Below are positions 14,658 through 35,369 of a DNA stretch of 64,000 nt, piece by piece. The stretch is from Acidobacteriota bacterium (GTDB taxonomy: Bacteria; Acidobacteriota; Blastocatellia; Chloracidobacteriales; JADJPF01): positions 1-64,000 of the forward strand of contig JACQZQ010000056.1 of assembly GCA_016213785.1 (NCBI GenBank). The letters run 5' to 3'. Position numbers and translations under genes: made by a program. The number at the start of each line of letters is the position of its first letter. Position 1 is the stretch's first letter. The notes beneath the pieces are model-generated. The model searched no databases. It was given only the letters and a program-made list of their open reading frames with translations, and was not told where the DNA came from.

Positions 14658-16157
14658 CTATAACTTAAAGATAGCACGAAGTTTTAAGCCTTCTTCTACT
14701 TGGCCTTCGGCTTTGATTTTTCCTTGTAAGAATGCAATTTCGGCTCGTTTTTTTCTTAAAAGTATTGCTGCCCAAACTCCAGCAGGCATTGTAACTGTAA
14801 ATGTTGTATTTTCAGGTATTTCACCAAACTGAAGATCCATTGTACCATTTTTAATTGATAAACAAATTTTTTCATCTCCAGCCTTGCCATCAGCAGTTAA
14901 ATAAATACCTATAGTAAGATTCCAATTTGCTGCAAGTTTAGGGTCAAAGCTTTTTACTAGGTTTTCAGTTAATGATTTTGCTTGAGGTGCGTAATCAGAA
15001 AGATTTTCGCTGGTTAAAAAGGGGATTGACCAGTTTTTTCTAGATATTTTAGATCTATTTTCTTTACGCCTTTGCCAAGCATAAAATGAAGGCCAAAGAC
15101 TATCTAATTCGTTTAAGTAAACTTCCCGGTTTAATCTAGCAGCTTTTTGTACTGCTAAAGAAAAACGTAAAATTTCACGACCTTCTTTTCCTGAAAGTAA
15201 AGGGCTTGCTCTACCTTTAATTGAATCAATAAAATTTTGTGTAGATGCCTTAAAACCAATACTCCAATCAGATTCTATTTCAATATGCTCTATGGTATGA
15301 CCATTAAAAATACTTAAGGCTGCTCCAGATTGAATATTGCCTGAACATCGATTAATTAAAATAATACCTTGAGAGCCTGATATTTCAATCCATTCATCAT
15401 TAGCATAATATTTTGATGGAATATGTAAGTTGCTTGAATGAGTAAAATCACAAGAGCCATATTTACTAGAATTTTTGTATTTCCAAATAATTATGGCAGG
15501 ACAATCTAGGACATCTTGAGAAAAGTCAATCCAGCCTGCAACTTTTTCAACTTCTCCAAGTAAAAAATAGGCTGTTGACCAAAGATGATGCCCATGATCA
15601 AAAGTTGCTGTGCCTCTACCAGCAAGAATTTCTTCCATTCGCCATTCCCAAGAACTAGATGGAACTGACCAACCGCCAGATGAGCCGCTAATAAATTTAA
15701 TCCTTAAATTTGTTAGTTCACCAATTTTTCCAGATTCTATAAGTTCTTTTGCTTTTACTATTGGAGGGTAGAAAACATAATTTTCCGTTACTTTATAAAC
15801 TAAATTTTTTTTCCCTACCGCTCTTAACATTCGATCTGCACTAGCAAGACTAGTAGTCATAGGCTTTTGTACTGCAATATGTTTACCTTCTTTAGCTGCT
15901 TTAATTACAAGTTTTTCGTGTAGGTTTTGATTATGAGGGACTAGAATTTCTACTGCATCTATTTCTTTATCAGCAAGTAATTCTTGGTAATCTGTATAGG
16001 CTTTTATAGCCTTCCATTCATTTTTACGTTTTTCTACTAGTTCTTTATTAATATCACAAACAGCATAAACTCTAGCGTCAGGATTATTTTGATAGCCTAA
16101 ATAATGTAGGTCTGCTATGCGGCCTGCACCAATAATTCCTATATTGATCTTTTGCAT
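14658..16157 (-). CDS. Gfo/Idh/MocA oxidoreductase fused to an SCP2-like domain
   Basis: Residues 1-340 form a NAD(P)-dependent Gfo/Idh/MocA oxidoreductase: GIIGAGRIADLHYLG Rossmann start, YQELLADKEIDAVEI, HIAVQKPMTTSLASAD (QKP in place of the usual EKP), and a C-terminal alpha/beta domain (RGTATFDHGHH). Members act on sugars or cyclitols. After a linker, residues about 385-499 look like an SCP2 lipid-binding domain: LTIGIYLTADGKAG, MDLQFGEIPENTTFTVTMPAGVWAAILL, FLQGKIKAEGQVEEGLKL. This fusion is unusual and may bring a lipid-linked substrate to the dehydrogenase. The total of 499 residues agrees with two whole domains. There is no signal peptide. The substrate is unknown. Confidence 0.85.
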   Translation of the reverse strand: MQKINIGIIGAGRIADLHYLGYQNNPDARVYAVCDINKELVEKRKNEWKAIKAYTDYQELLADKEIDAVEILVPHNQNLHEKLVIKAAKEGKHIAVQKPMTTSLASADRMLRAVGKKNLVYKVTENYVFYPPIVKAKELIESGKIGELTNLRIKFISGSSGGWSVPSSSWEWRMEEILAGRGTATFDHGHHLWSTAYFLLGEVEKVAGWIDFSQDVLDCPAIIIWKYKNSSKYGSCDFTHSSNLHIPSKYYANDEWIEISGSQGIILINRCSGNIQSGAALSIFNGHTIEHIEIESDWSIGFKASTQNFIDSIKGRASPLLSGKEGREILRFSLAVQKAARLNREVYLNELDSLWPSFYAWQRRKENRSKISRKNWSIPFLTSENLSDYAPQAKSLTENLVKSFDPKLAANWNLTIGIYLTADGKAGDEKICLSIKNGTMDLQFGEIPENTTFTVTMPAGVWAAILLRKKRAEIAFLQGKIKAEGQVEEGLKLRAIFKL

Positions 16158-18807: not shown

Positions 18808-18943
18808 ATAAAAAATAATTGCAACTACTTATTTCAAGTCTTGTTTGATTTGGAATCTCTATGTATTATAGAAAGTCTAAATCAAAATTTATTTGTTTTT
18901 TATGACCAGGTGAACTAGTTATTTAATTTGCGGAGAGGTGCAT

Positions 18944-20335
18944 ATGAGTGGGGGAATAATCTCATCGTTATTAGTTGGTTTAACGGATGTTGGGTTGGTA
19001 AGAGAAAATAACGAAGATATGTTTTTAATGGTCGAACCAGAATCAGGAATGTTACTGGAAAACAACTACAAACTGATTCGTCCGGTAGAAAAACATAATG
19101 TTTTGTTGGTAGTCTCTGATGGTATGGGTGGTTATGAAGGGGGAGAAGTTGCTAGTTTATTAACAGTTGGTGCAATAAAAAACGAACTCTTAAAACTACC
19201 TAAACAACTATCTCCGCAAAGCCGCTTAGAAGCAGCAGTAGAAGAGGCAAACCGAACTGTTTCTTACCATCGTCAACTGGATCAAAAACTAGCTAATATG
19301 GGCGCAACTGCAACAGCTGTCCTAATAGAACAAGATATTGCTTATGTTGCAGAAGTAGGGGATTCTAGAGCTTATATACTTCGTGATGGACGTATTAAAC
19401 AATTAACAACAGATCAAACAATGATTCAAATGTTAATTGACTCAGGAGCTATTTCTGCTGAATCTGCTGCTACTAATAAAAATCGTAATATTTTACTGCA
19501 AGCTATTGGTAGTCAAGAATTTCTTCAAATAGCTGTAACTTCTATAAGACTTCAAGCCAATGATATTTTACTTCTTTGTAGTGATGGTCTGTCAGGAAAA
19601 CTTACTGCTCCTGAAATGAAAAAGATAATAGATGCTAATAACACTAGCTTAAATAACGCTGGTTTAGAAATGATAAATCTAGCTAAAGAGCGAGGTGGAG
19701 ATGATAACATAACCGTTATTTTGGCTAAGTTTGAAGGTTCTGGTCTACAAGGTAAATTAAGTGCTGGTGGAGTAGCAGGTACTTTAACTAAACAAATTAA
19801 GGTACTAGCAAGGTTTGACCCAGAACAAGAAGCAGAATCTAAACCAAGAAGAGAAGTCCGGCCAGCAAACTTCCAGGATTGGATGACTTCAGCCGTTATA
19901 GATGCTTTTGCTCGTACAGATGAACAACGTGAAGCCTTAGCTGCACTAGGTAAATTTGGAGATTATGTAGTCTTTAGAAAAGGCGATGTCCTACATATTG
20001 AACCAGGCTCAAATACTAAAGAACATTATTGGTTAGTTGGTGGTAGATATCGTGTTATGGCTGATAATCAACGTGGAGAAAAACAATCTTTATTTTTTCT
20101 AGTTCCTCCTACCGATCGTCGCTCAGATGATTTAATTCAGGCAGGTGAAGCTTTTGTTTGGGTAAGAAGACAGTTTTTTATTTCTACTTTAAGCATGTTA
20201 CAACAACAAGCCCGCAATCCTATTATACGTTGTGAAGATGATAAAAATACTGCTATTCATATTAATGGAGAACTATTTGATAAATTATCAGAAATATTAG
20301 GAGATAGATTTGTTGCAACTGTAAGACATTCATAG
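18944..20335 (+). CDS. PP2C-family Ser/Thr phosphatase with a C-terminal extension
   Basis: This is a metal-dependent PPM/PP2C phosphatase, 463 residues. Conserved blocks are in the first 260 residues: TDVGLVRENNEDMFL, VSDGMGGYEGGE, GDSRAYIL, CSDGLSG and GGDDNIT, so all the metal-binding Asp residues are present. About 200 residues follow: a short linker with RRE, then a compact domain (FGDYVVFRKGDVLHIEPG, HYWLVGGRYRVMA) that I do not recognise. I chose the ATG at 18944 because GGAGAGG lies five bases before it; a GTG two codons earlier overlaps that site. It follows the FHA histidine kinase and would reverse Ser/Thr phosphorylation by the window's kinases. No membrane anchor. A hairpin terminator follows. 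Confidence 0.93.
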   Translation: MSGGIISSLLVGLTDVGLVRENNEDMFLMVEPESGMLLENNYKLIRPVEKHNVLLVVSDGMGGYEGGEVASLLTVGAIKNELLKLPKQLSPQSRLEAAVEEANRTVSYHRQLDQKLANMGATATAVLIEQDIAYVAEVGDSRAYILRDGRIKQLTTDQTMIQMLIDSGAISAESAATNKNRNILLQAIGSQEFLQIAVTSIRLQANDILLLCSDGLSGKLTAPEMKKIIDANNTSLNNAGLEMINLAKERGGDDNITVILAKFEGSGLQGKLSAGGVAGTLTKQIKVLARFDPEQEAESKPRREVRPANFQDWMTSAVIDAFARTDEQREALAALGKFGDYVVFRKGDVLHIEPGSNTKEHYWLVGGRYRVMADNQRGEKQSLFFLVPPTDRRSDDLIQAGEAFVWVRRQFFISTLSMLQQQARNPIIRCEDDKNTAIHINGELFDKLSEILGDRFVATVRHS

Positions 20336-20453: not shown

Positions 20454-21776
20454 CTATTTATCAATTAAATTAATGCCTTCAGGTTGAGTTACAATAACTT
20501 TATTTGCTTTTTCGCTTAATCCTACATGTAGTAAATCTGTAAAGTCCATTTCTAAAGATTCATCAGCATTTAGAAGATTAAATTTGAAAAAGCCCCCTTG
20601 AGTTGTTCCAGAATAAAGTATTGAACCATCCTGGCTATATGCAAAACCTGTTAAAGGAGAAGCAAATTCTTTGTCAAATGCCAAGTTAAATAGGTCAGAT
20701 GACACAACACTGACATGCCCTGGTTTTTGGATATGTCCTGGTTTTTGAATATGTCCTGGTTTTTGAATATGTCCTGGCTTTTGAATATGTCCTGGCTTTT
20801 GAATGTAAACTAGGCCATTATTATTACTGTAATCAACATGGATTGGCAATAAACGGGCTTCGTCTTCATTGCTATCAGCAAGCCCTAAAATATATCTTCT
20901 AGCTATTGGGCTAGCTTTTTTAATATCATAACAAGAAACATAGCCTTTATTTGAAGATGCTATATAAACATTGCTACCATCTCCATTAAAGGCCACTTTT
21001 GAGCCAAACCCAACAATCTCATCAGATAAAAGATTTATTAACCCTTTTACTTCTAATTGGCCTTCATCATTTAGGCTATAGACGTATAAATAATACTTAT
21101 TATCTTGCTGCTTAACTATACCTAATCTATTACTAATAGGATCGTAGGAAAAACTCTCTAAGCGGTTTTCACTGCTATAAGAATCAATTCCAACATTTTC
21201 TTCAAAGAGCTTTTCTCCAGTAGTGGTAGAGAAAACAAAGATACTTGCTTTGTTAGAATAGATTCCATATCGACCATCTGATGATAGAGCTACATCGTCA
21301 GGTAGAATGGTGTCATCCTCAGACATAGGAACAGAAAAAGCCACATTAATGCGATGACTAAGATCAAAAGATCCATCTGCATTAACAGGTGTTGTAAGAA
21401 TCGTTGCTATATTTGACTCACTGCCCCTAGCGGAAATAACTAATAGATTGTTAGAGGTTATAGCTAATTTAGTTGGGTTAATTGTTCCTACTTTAGCTGT
21501 ATCAAGAGTGTCTATTACTTGGCCTGTTTGAGTATCGAAACTATATACATAGTGACCATTAGAACTACCTGATTCATTTGATTCATTGTAAGAGGCAACT
21601 AAACCAACTTTACCATCTTGAGTAAATACTATGTTGTTTAGGTCTGATAGTTTACCTGGTAATGTTACCATAGCACTAGGTTGCGTTGAGTCAGCTTTGG
21701 TTGACCAGCTATAAAACAACGCTGCTAGACCACAAAGCAACAAAGCTAAAGTTTGATATCTAGTACAAATTCTCAT
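20454..21776 (-). CDS. exported propeller-like protein with five IQKPGH repeats
   Basis: The 440-residue protein starts with a signal peptide (LALLLCGLAALFYSWSTKA). It then shows repeated strand patterns typical of a seven-bladed YVTN/WD40-like propeller (VALSSDGRYGIYSNKASIFVFS, VAFNGDGSNVYIASSNKGYVSCYD, GFAYSQDGSILYSGT). Near residues 320-355 a run of five exact IQKPGH hexapeptides is inserted between blades, coded by an 18-bp tandem repeat. I know no family with this insert. The next gene upstream (21850-21993) encodes a short exported peptide with two IVKPGH motifs, so the two are probably functionally linked. The number of repeats may vary between strains. Substrate or partner is unknown. 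An ATG at 21776 gives a complete signal peptide; its ribosome site is weak. Confidence 0.8.
   Translation of the reverse strand: MRICTRYQTLALLLCGLAALFYSWSTKADSTQPSAMVTLPGKLSDLNNIVFTQDGKVGLVASYNESNESGSSNGHYVYSFDTQTGQVIDTLDTAKVGTINPTKLAITSNNLLVISARGSESNIATILTTPVNADGSFDLSHRINVAFSVPMSEDDTILPDDVALSSDGRYGIYSNKASIFVFSTTTGEKLFEENVGIDSYSSENRLESFSYDPISNRLGIVKQQDNKYYLYVYSLNDEGQLEVKGLINLLSDEIVGFGSKVAFNGDGSNVYIASSNKGYVSCYDIKKASPIARRYILGLADSNEDEARLLPIHVDYSNNNGLVYIQKPGHIQKPGHIQKPGHIQKPGHIQKPGHVSVVSSDLFNLAFDKEFASPLTGFAYSQDGSILYSGTTQGGFFKFNLLNADESLEMDFTDLLHVGLSEKANKVIVTQPEGINLIDK
20715..20804 (-). repeat. 18-bp tandem repeat, five copies (IQKPGH)
   Basis: Five in-frame copies of an 18-bp unit, differing at a few third-codon positions, encode IQKPGH five times inside the propeller-like gene. 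An exact multiple of three keeps the frame if copy number changes. Confidence 0.95.
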
Positions 21777-21849
21777 AACTTTACTCTGAAAATTAAGATA
21801 TTTAAGGTTTCCTGTTCTACTAGCATTTGCATTATTTCCTAATTTATTT

Positions 21850-21993
21850 TTAGTGGCCCGGTTTAACTATGCTGGTAGATTTACTATCTTGCTTAATATG
21901 TCCAGGTTTAACTATGGCTGCTGTGCTTATTACTACGGTAGCTACTACTAGTGTGGTACTAACAAAAATAAGAAGATTTTTTTTATTCAGCAT
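21850..21993 (-). CDS. short exported peptide with two IVKPGH motifs
   Basis: This is a 47-residue frame. It begins with an ATG preceded by GAGGA at a good distance, so translation is well supported. Residues 3-26 are a short basic start plus a long hydrophobic stretch (LLIFVSTTLVVATVVISTAA), a signal peptide or membrane anchor. The remaining 21 residues are IVKPGH, a nine-residue spacer (IKQDSKSTS), and a second IVKPGH ending at the stop. If a signal peptidase cuts after STAA, the mature peptide is just the two motifs and the spacer. It lies 73 bases upstream of the propeller-like gene that holds five IQKPGH repeats, on the same strand, so the two are probably one operon. The family is unknown to me; a pheromone, adhesion or binding-motif peptide are all possible. 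Confidence 0.65.
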   Translation of the reverse strand: MLNKKNLLIFVSTTLVVATVVISTAAIVKPGHIKQDSKSTSIVKPGH

Positions 21994-22248: not shown

Positions 22249-23460
22249 TTAAATAGTCGATACCCTTTGAGAAAGAGGCTCACAGCCTTTTTCTGTGATC
22301 AGAAAAACATCCTCTATCCTTACTCCAAACTCACCTGGCAAATAAATTCCAGGCTCAATAGTTACCACATTACCGGGTTGTAACTTAAAAGAATTTCCTT
22401 TAACTAAATAAGGAAACTCATGCCCATCCATTCCTAAACCATGTCCAAGTCTATGGGTAAAATATTTTCCATAGCCCGCTTTCTCAATTACATTTCTAGC
22501 TGCTTTGTCTACTTCTTGGCATTCAACACCAGCTTTAGCGGCTTCAACACCCGCTTGTTGAGCTTGCCAAACAATATTATAAATTTCTTTATACTTTGTT
22601 GAAGGTGAATCTCCCCAAAATATTGTTCTAGTAATATCTGAAGCATAACCACCTACTTCACACCCTACATCAATTAAAACAGGCATTGCTTTAGCTAGTT
22701 TTACTTCACTTGGGCCTCCGTGTGGCAGTGCAGCGCTTGGGCCAAATTGAACCAGCCCTCCACCAGAAACCCCACGTTTTTTCATCTCTTGAGAAACTAT
22801 AGCCCCTACTTCTAGCTCTGTTTTATCTACGGCTAAAGCTGCATGAGTTCCAGCAATTGACTCTAATGTAATTTGATTAGCATATTTTATTGCAGCTAAT
22901 TCTTCTGGAGATTTTTGTAAGCGTAAAGCTGTAAAAATTGCTTCAGCATCCATTAATTCTAGATTGTTAGGCGCAATTGCACGTAATTTCCAGTAAGTAT
23001 TTAAGTCTGTTGAAGGCTCTAGCCCAATACGATTAACACCTAGTTTCTTAAATATATCTACTGCAAGTTGATAAGGACTTTCTGATTCTTCCCAAGGAGC
23101 AGTTTTAATAGTGCTGTTAGCCTTTTTTAGTCTAGATTCTTCAAATAGAGGAGTAATAACAATGGGTTCACCATTTTGAGGTAAAAGTAGCGCAATTAAC
23201 CTTTCGCTACGACCTGTTCTTAGCTTAGATAAATAAGTCATATTTTTACCAGGCAAAGTAAAAAGCAAATCAATTTTTGCGGCTTTCATTTGCTCTTGTG
23301 CTCTAGTAATACGACTAGGAATAGAATTATTAATTGCTTCCTGAATATTACTTATACTTAGTTGAGTAGTATTGTCAAAATTGCTAAAACTAAACTTAGG
23401 CTCAATTAATAATGATGTTGTAGCCAAACCAAGCGAAGCTAAAAACTTACGTCTTTGCAT
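22249..23460 (-). CDS. Tat-exported M24 metallopeptidase (Xaa-Pro aminopeptidase-like)
   Basis: The 403-residue protein is an M24-family metallopeptidase, cleaving N-terminal residues before proline or a related bond. The N-terminal creatinase-like domain is at about 40-190. The pita-bread catalytic domain follows, with the metal ligands visible: LIDVGCEVGGYASDITRT (two Asp), HRLGHGLGMDGHE (His), IEPGIYLPGEFG (Glu) and VRIEDVFLI (Glu). The first residues, MQRRKFLASLGLATTSLL, contain a twin-arginine signal (RRKFL), so it folds before export. An A-rich leader with no strong ribosome site precedes the ATG. It stands alone, with the KPGH pair downstream and an orphan gene upstream. Confidence 0.93.
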   Translation of the reverse strand: MQRRKFLASLGLATTSLLIEPKFSFSNFDNTTQLSISNIQEAINNSIPSRITRAQEQMKAAKIDLLFTLPGKNMTYLSKLRTGRSERLIALLLPQNGEPIVITPLFEESRLKKANSTIKTAPWEESESPYQLAVDIFKKLGVNRIGLEPSTDLNTYWKLRAIAPNNLELMDAEAIFTALRLQKSPEELAAIKYANQITLESIAGTHAALAVDKTELEVGAIVSQEMKKRGVSGGGLVQFGPSAALPHGGPSEVKLAKAMPVLIDVGCEVGGYASDITRTIFWGDSPSTKYKEIYNIVWQAQQAGVEAAKAGVECQEVDKAARNVIEKAGYGKYFTHRLGHGLGMDGHEFPYLVKGNSFKLQPGNVVTIEPGIYLPGEFGVRIEDVFLITEKGCEPLSQRVSTI

Positions 23461-34313: not shown

Positions 34314-35369
34314 ATGGCTACAAAACAAACTATAGAAACATTTGATAATGATAGTGTATGGAAAGAATTACTAGAAAAATACTTTAAGGAGTTTATGGAG
34401 TATTTTTTTCCAAATGCTTACAATCAAATAGACTGGGAAAAAGGCTATACCTTTTTAGATAAAGAATTGCAAAAAGTAGTAAGAAAAGCTATAGGAAAAA
34501 GACGTTATGTAGACAAATTAGTCAAAGTATGGTTAAAAGATGGTCAAGAAACTTGGGTACTACTTCATATAGAAATACAAAACCAATGGGAAGAAGACTT
34601 TAACGAAAGAATGTATATCTATCAATACCGAATTTTTGATAGATATAAAAGAAAAGTAGCAAGTTTTGTAATACTTACAGATGAAAACCCTAACTGGAAG
34701 CCAAATAAGTTTGAGTATAATTTACTAGAAACAAAACTTTTCTATGAATATAAAATAGTAAAAATACTAGATTACAAAAATAGGTGGGAAGAATTAGAGA
34801 AAGACAAAAATATATTTTCTCTTGTAATAATGGCACATCTAAAAGTTCAGGAAACAAAAGATAATGCAAATGAAAGGTATTTGTGGAAATGGAAATTAGT
34901 TAGAATGCTTTATGAAAGAGGTTATAACAAAGAGGATATTTTAGAACTTTTCCGCTTTATAGATTGGTTAATTATTTTGCCTGAAGAATTAGAAGAAAAA
35001 TTAGAAAATGCATTAGAAGAATTAGAAAGGAGTGAGTCTATGCCATATGTTACTAGCATTGAACGTAGAGCTATTCAAAGAGGTTTAGAACAAGGTCGTC
35101 AAGAAGGTCGTCAAGAAGGTCGTCAAGAAGGTCGTCAGGAAGGTCGTCAAGAAGGTCGTCAGGAAGGTCGTCAGGAAGGTCGTCAGGAAGGTTTGCTTGA
35201 AGAAGCAAGAGAGGCTGTTTTAGATAACTTAGAAATAAGATTTGGGAATGTGCCAGAGGCTATATTACTAGCTATAAAACATATGACAGATATAGCCTTA
35301 CTAAAAAGCTTACGTAAAAAAACTTTACAGGTGGTATCTTTAGAGGAGTTTAGTAAAGAAATTGTTTGA
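34314..35369 (+). CDS. Rpn/PD-(D/E)XK nuclease-like protein with GRQE repeats
   Basis: This 351-residue protein resembles the recombination-promoting nuclease (Rpn, PD-(D/E)XK) or 'transposase-like' DUF family. The N-terminal region (about 10-150) includes YFFPNAYNQIDW, KRRYVDKLVKVWLKDG with an Asp, and LLHIEIQNQWEEDFNERMY, where an E-x-Q stands at the catalytic core. Helices with LLLPEELEE-like leucine patterns follow. Then come eight GRQE tandem units (residues about 260-292) and a C-terminal helical tail. The weak ribosome site may mean low expression. Such genes are often mobile and numerous in a genome. Confidence 0.82.
   Translation: MATKQTIETFDNDSVWKELLEKYFKEFMEYFFPNAYNQIDWEKGYTFLDKELQKVVRKAIGKRRYVDKLVKVWLKDGQETWVLLHIEIQNQWEEDFNERMYIYQYRIFDRYKRKVASFVILTDENPNWKPNKFEYNLLETKLFYEYKIVKILDYKNRWEELEKDKNIFSLVIMAHLKVQETKDNANERYLWKWKLVRMLYERGYNKEDILELFRFIDWLIILPEELEEKLENALEELERSESMPYVTSIERRAIQRGLEQGRQEGRQEGRQEGRQEGRQEGRQEGRQEGRQEGLLEEAREAVLDNLEIRFGNVPEAILLAIKHMTDIALLKSLRKKTLQVVSLEEFSKEIV
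35094..35189 (+). repeat. 12-bp tandem repeat, eight copies (GRQE)
   Basis: Eight copies of GGTCGTCARGAA, near identical except for A/G at one position, lie in frame in the Rpn-like gene. The repeat can expand or contract without frameshift and is typical of this family's linker. Confidence 0.93.

Follow-up and report, generated by a model that had tools for sequence, protein, structure and literature searches.

The exported peptide and propeller genes

The window, by which we mean the whole stretch of 64,000 nucleotides analyzed here (from genome G000), carries on its minus strand a small gene for a putative exported peptide, followed on the same strand, after a gap of 73 bases, by a gene for a predicted secreted beta-propeller protein, each encoding several copies of a similar hexapeptide. 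The features of this locus are:

21850..21993, minus strand: gene for a 47-aa exported-type peptide (ORF call, orthologue in L011, dN/dS)
21898..21915, minus strand: first IVKPGH of the peptide (ATA GTT AAA CCT GGA CAT)
21853..21870, minus strand: second, C-terminal IVKPGH of the peptide (ATA GTT AAA CCG GGC CAC)
20454..21776, minus strand: gene for a 440-aa secreted beta-propeller with a signal-like N-terminus (ORF call, AlphaFold, structure matches)
20715..20804, minus strand: five tandem exact IQKPGH units in an 18-bp tandem array (repeat search, low-pLDDT loop)

A preliminary description of this DNA had pointed out the 47-residue frame, with its ribosome site, leader and two IVKPGH motifs, as well as the 440-residue propeller with five IQKPGH units 73 bases downstream, and we recovered both genes and the array at the same coordinates. 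The start codon of the peptide (full sequence MLNKKNLLIFVSTTLVVATVVISTAAIVKPGHIKQDSKSTSIVKPGH) is preceded by a GAGG ribosome site, and the layout of the product is MLNKKNLLIFVSTTLVVATVVISTAA-IVKPGH-IKQDSKSTS-IVKPGH-stop, the two IVKPGH codings showing three differences, all synonymous. By eye, which is how the signal peptides of both peptide and propeller were assessed, the N-terminus combines a basic n-region, a hydrophobic stretch, and a plausible cleavage site before IVKPGH, a trait conserved in genome G001. Since the G001 orthologue has a clean signal-peptidase site between ASA and IVKPGH, the mature peptide likely corresponds to the last 21 residues of the frame. Between G000 and G001, the peptide shows a dN of about 0.18 and a dS of about 0.78 (Fisher p 0.0003), similar to the values of the propeller (dN 0.17, dS 0.91), and the other two pairs gave Fisher p of 1e-6 and 2e-4. 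Judged by these substitution patterns, the small frame is a real gene under purifying selection.

The AlphaFold model of the window protein is a beta-propeller (pLDDT 73, pTM 0.72), in which the IQKPGH array is found in a loop between the strands VYIQ and HVSVV. The array region (residues 329-370) has a pLDDT of 25-31, and the array of a second homologue is likewise predicted as a low-confidence loop between two strands; as the modelled propellers are of the tail-less kind (see below) and the underlying alignments held five sequences only, the low confidence is suggestive of a disordered loop, short of proof. The best structure matches are eight-bladed propellers, namely Rsa4, Fbw7/Cdc4, BamB, and YxaL (Z 24-27), several of which bind partner proteins or peptides. 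At the sequence level, the window protein reaches 14.4 bits against the Lactonase family, below the cut-off of 21.7, and has no match in NCBIfam; members of the propeller family match PQQ_2, Lactonase, and others weakly (best E 2e-4), and a PADLOC search for defence systems left the propellers without a match. Nor did we find literature on KPGH or hexapeptide arrays in propellers of Acidobacteria, the text matches to KPGH being unrelated. The earlier impression that no known family fits was thus borne out by profile, defence-system, and literature searches alike.

The body of the window propeller is acidic (net about -22 without the loop), and in every member of the family a basic loop (+2 to +7) accompanies an acidic remainder (-7 to -27). 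These charges would suit a self-recognition, in which the loop or the free peptide docks on the acidic face of a neighboring propeller, the loop linking propellers and the peptide capping them or competing, with no third protein required. The peptide-binding eight-bladed propellers among the nearest structures (Fbw7, Cdc4, Rsa4) point in the same direction, and a pocket encoded in the same gene would make a matched change of the copies easy. However, the predicted monomer leaves the loop undocked (at low pLDDT and with a five-sequence alignment), and the invariant columns are mostly G, P, and N, with no conserved acidic pocket standing out; self-recognition appears to us rather unlikely.

The sharing of the motif between the two genes had been deemed hard to explain by chance, and the counts agree. 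The window contains the KPGH pattern 7 times, versus 0.2 expected, and in the whole 6.4-Mb genome IxKPGH is found only at these seven sites and at two more in one paralogue (contig C96), while the reversed pattern, used as a control in the same genome, gave 0 matches. A scan of the genome for tandem motifs returned real ones only in propellers, amid chance matches. Genome and window counts, together with the exclusively synonymous differences between copies described below, rule out a chance coincidence. A DNA-level repeat was rejected as well, because the copies differ at synonymous sites and yet match in their residues.

Directly upstream of the peptide gene (22249-23460, minus strand) lies a gene for an M24 (Xaa-Pro aminopeptidase-type) peptidase with a twin-arginine-like leader (MQRRKFLASLG...). 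This vicinity of an Xaa-Pro peptidase and a K-P peptide, kept in G001 and not at the G003 locus, is suggestive, and it would fit a role of the hexapeptide as a processing substrate, i.e., as the sequence at which an exported enzyme, be it a protease or a modifying one, would produce short peptides from both precursors by a multi-core logic. The identical tandem units, the flexible loop, and the short exported precursor could be read in the same way. Yet no conserved modifying enzyme or dedicated protease adjoins the family, and the M24 gene is absent beside the G003 locus and the others, and we consider processing improbable. Elsewhere in the window, a PP2C phosphatase gene (18938-20332, plus strand) is convergent with the propeller gene and is also a neighbor at the G001 and G003 loci, a GFO/IDH/MocA oxidoreductase is fused to a C-terminal SCP2 sterol-carrier domain (14661-16157, minus strand), and a 12-bp tandem repeat, AAGGTCGTCAAG, extends over 8.4 copies with 96% matches (35092-35192).

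Distribution of the pair and selection on the hexapeptide

The search for relatives of the propeller covered 58 related genomes, 162 genomes of the class, and 396 of the phylum. Full members were found in 14 genomes from four families (f1, f2, f3, f6) of the Blastocatellia, a class of soil and water bacteria, and within the genomes searched the module is limited to part of the Blastocatellia (Acidobacteriota). At seven loci in five genomes, corresponding to about four independent lineages, the propeller gene is immediately preceded, on the same strand and at a distance of 19-73 bases, by a short exported frame containing [KR]PGH. The small frame, whose loss in relatives had been named beforehand as a finding that would speak against the pair, is therefore kept. 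These loci are:

G000, window locus: peptide with two IVKPGH, loop with five IQKPGH
G001, contig c394: same as the window (peptide with two IVKPGH, loop with five IQKPGH)
G003, contig c15: peptide with ITKPGH and IVKPGH, loop with four IQRPGH
G004, contig c102, and G005, contig c55: peptide with two IAKPGH, loop with three IQKPGH
G004, contig c16: peptide with three IARPGH, loop with three LVRPGH
G005, contig c78: peptide with three IARPGH, loop with three INRPGH

Peptide and propeller hexads resemble each other without being identical (IVKPGH and IQKPGH in the window), those of G003 differing at the K/R position too. The C-terminal hexad ends the peptide in G000 and G001, is followed by two residues in G003, and precedes longer tails in G004 and G005. 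The claim of a peptide beside the propeller thus holds at seven loci, but several propellers have no free peptide and others bear the motif in a C-terminal tail instead. For five KPGH- and ISRP-type propellers neither peptide nor tail was found, G002 being 83% complete and several contigs ending near the loci. A three-unit [KR]PGH-type pattern searched in 84,980 genomes returned 37 stretches, five of which are real and belong to Blastocatellia propellers or peptides (L061, L074, two in L086, and L091); the other ones were discarded as GC-rich repeat frames (LGHPGH...) or as isolated repeats unlinked to a propeller.

That the two genes belong together was upheld by this survey, whereas KPGH proved to be an incomplete description of the motif, as it is one version of the wider [IVL]x[KR]Pxx. 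The latter is present in 1-5 copies at the same surface loop in all 21 propellers compared, which share 21-71% identity with the window protein. Position P334 is invariant (21/21) and I331 is conserved in 18 of the 21, which places them among the best-conserved columns in a family with otherwise few invariant residues. The hexads are identical within a protein and different between proteins (IQKPGH, INRPGH, LVRPGH, ISRPLG, ITRPAN, IRRPIF, and others). In addition to the loops listed above, there are tandem ones with two ISRPLG, two ISRPFG, five ISRPGN, or three ITRPAN, and spaced pairs of IHRPLN, IRRPTN, ISRPIN, IRRPIF, VKRPIF, or VRRPTL, whose motif-linker-motif layout is that of the window peptide.

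Between neighboring copies, 112 of 112 nucleotide differences are synonymous, versus 27% expected without constraint; the differences were treated as independent, and the nominal p of 1e-64 thus overstates the strength of this result. Moreover, sister proteins switch all copies together, as seen for two IRRPTN versus two ISRPIN, two IRRPIF versus two VKRPIF, and three LVRPGH versus three INRPGH. From the synonymous-only differences, the joint switching, and the conservation of P334 and I331 we conclude, at the level of sequence comparison, that the hexapeptide is a selected feature and that its copies are selected to match one another. The persistence of the motif in orthologues, the other check proposed at the outset, is accordingly explained by selection on the amino acids. 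A neutral expansion of an 18-base unit by slippage, combined with a chance match in the small frame, could account for the copy number varying from 1 to 5 and for the five DNA-identical units in the G001 loop. It is contradicted by the 112 synonymous differences, by the location of the arrays at the same site in 14 genomes, by the purifying selection on the peptide, and by the spaced motif-linker-motif forms, which slippage would not create; unless the alignments are wrong, the data already refute it, and we give it practically no credence.

At 510-562 aa, the propellers of families f3 and f6 are longer, and we found no separate peptide for them. Six of the eight f3/f6 members have a C-terminal tail with the motif at its end (SIRRPSNVKR, SIRRPCNLGLH, TIRRPCNILR, AIRRPCNIKR, GIRRPCGLTGR, SISRPGGRSDGH). 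This fusion-like occurrence of the motif as a propeller tail in place of a free peptide supports the idea that peptide and propeller act together. A general sorting signal was dismissed, IRRPC[NGSD] being no commoner than the control in eight genomes. Three propellers of about 900 aa with later repeat domains (L114, L115, and L117; G025 C92, G014 C37, and G021 C28, respectively) are likely relatives of this family; they carry a single IRRP[VIS]N at the equivalent loop, and neither a small peptide nor a motif tail.

An HTH-TPR-sigma54 activator in the propeller genomes

Many of the propeller genes adjoin a gene for an activator of 1,160-1,270 aa, composed of an N-terminal HTH, TPR repeats, sigma54 AAA+, and Fis domains, and the ISRPLG/ISRPFG propellers are followed by a related TPR-sigma54 gene of about 1,000 aa. 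Of the 14 propeller genomes, 13 encode the N-terminal HTH of the activator as part of such a long frame, and the 14th (G029) has a contig-cut copy of the activator beside its propeller. The activator was detected in 0 of the 148 other genomes of the class among the candidates scored (in one of them, a 180-aa protein carries just the HTH), a figure that comes from a first-look search with limited candidates, repeated with the N-terminal part to lower the risk of missing homologues. In the tree, the regulators associated with propellers group into a single exclusive clade, whose subclades are those of the propellers, and complete pairings correspond to about one regulator per hexapeptide code: G004 and G005 have two regulators and two codes each, and G000 has two regulators and two loop codes for three propellers, those of the window and of C96 sharing IQKPGH.

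Sigma54-type promoters were predicted upstream of several members, scoring above 95% of shuffles. The window locus lacks both an adjacent activator and a convincing sigma54 promoter, and its link to the regulator is thus one of co-inheritance only. The TPR-sigma54 gene adjoins the peptide only at G004 C16 and G005 C78, and no further peptides were found near other TPR-sigma54 activators. In PADLOC, the regulator matches only through its AAA+ and TPR parts, and a profile of its TPR region picks up NprR and RapF as well, together with many generic TPRs. Two TPR-sigma54 homologues of G014 (C24, 102082-105141 and 111049-114144) contain two or three in-frame stops and are possibly decayed or frameshifted.

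Possible roles of the exported hexapeptides

The matched motif in peptide and propeller, together with a dedicated regulator, points to an undescribed peptide-recognition or peptide-signaling system. We propose an exported-hexapeptide module, to which we assign about an even chance, where a single co-evolving partner would read the hexapeptide as its ligand, displayed in two ways, by the peptide and by the loop. The secreted propeller would show 1-5 identical hexapeptides on a flexible loop, the second presentation being the upstream exported peptide (KPGH/RPGH types, including the window) or the C-terminal tail of the propeller (RPxN types). Peptide and loop or tail would bind the same partner, the free peptide possibly as a signal or competitor and the propeller as a multivalent, fixed form, and the activator would turn the module on. 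With one co-evolving reader, copies would be expected to match within a system and to drift apart between systems. As candidate partners one may think of a protein of the envelope, of the propeller itself, or of the activator's TPR domain, which might read the released peptide. Of the two readings offered in the preliminary description, peptide and propeller insert as ligand and mimic or both as targets of a third protein, either may hold. If this proposal is right, one interchangeable hexapeptide code is displayed both on a secreted scaffold and by a free peptide, under a dedicated activator, a recognition or signaling logic that is undescribed in the Acidobacteriota, an abundant and poorly studied phylum. 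As the codes are matched per system and differ between paralogues in one genome, its specificity would be open to direct hexapeptide swaps.

The secreted hexapeptide, be it the IVKPGH-type peptide or a fragment released from the propeller loop or tail, might also re-enter the cell, be recognized there by the activator's TPR domain, and switch on the propeller and peptide genes, with one code per activator. We hold this to be unlikely, yet a TPR reader is attractive because the layout of the window peptide resembles that of RRNPP propeptides with duplicated hexapeptides. In the Phr of phage phi105, ERPVGT occurs twice, once internally after a spacer and once at the C-terminus (PMC11343458); by inspection, the window peptide is likewise a short exported precursor with a basic n-region, a hydrophobic leader, and two identical hexapeptides, one internal and one C-terminal, and TPR proteins are also part of the Blastocatellia system. 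The RRNPP(A) systems are, however, those of Bacillota and not of a diderm phylum such as the Acidobacteriota, and here a large secreted propeller incorporates the hexapeptide as well. For their receptors, a TPR protein of 250-500 aa is the criterion (PMC10075063), whereas the candidate receptor is a TPR-sigma54 activator of 980-1,270 aa, which in most loci, the window included, is not adjacent to the peptide. RRNPP(A) receptors capture the mature peptide in the cytoplasm with their TPR domain, a function for which the TPR domain described here is a candidate only. Given the receptor size and the lack of adjacency, we do not file the system as RRNPP. Were the TPR activator indeed the reader, RRNPP-like peptide signaling would reach past Bacillota into a diderm phylum.

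Other known systems resemble the module in part. BamB, YxaL, and YncE/lactonase-type propellers share with it the fold, the export, and a weak profile similarity, but none of them has a tandem loop of matched hexapeptides or a cognate small peptide as its defining trait. Amyloid signaling pairs (HET-s/NWD2 in fungi, BASS in bacteria) offer a precedent in the literature for adjacent genes with a common, short repeated motif, which is also what we observe, and the matching within each system would be compatible with a homotypic cross-beta assembly of peptide and propeller. The Blastocatellia proteins differ in being exported and devoid of NLR or known effector domains, their arrays are predicted to be unordered, and the invariant K/R-P (often K/R-P-G) is ill suited to a cross-beta structure, this core not being amyloid-like; a cross-beta assembly is in our view very improbable. 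As for PEP-CTERM-like signals, some members do bear a short C-terminal motif (SIRRPCN...) and have sigma54 regulators nearby. Yet the motif is also internal and arrayed, no transmembrane segment follows it, and instead of many motif-ended proteins per genome, G000 has IxKPGH at one locus and in one paralogue.

Downstream of that paralogous propeller on C96 lies a gene for a 1,425-aa exported FG-GAP/Ig-like protein (L122, 9321-13595), which is also found in G001; in G014, G040, and G044, a different large exported protein is encoded at this position.
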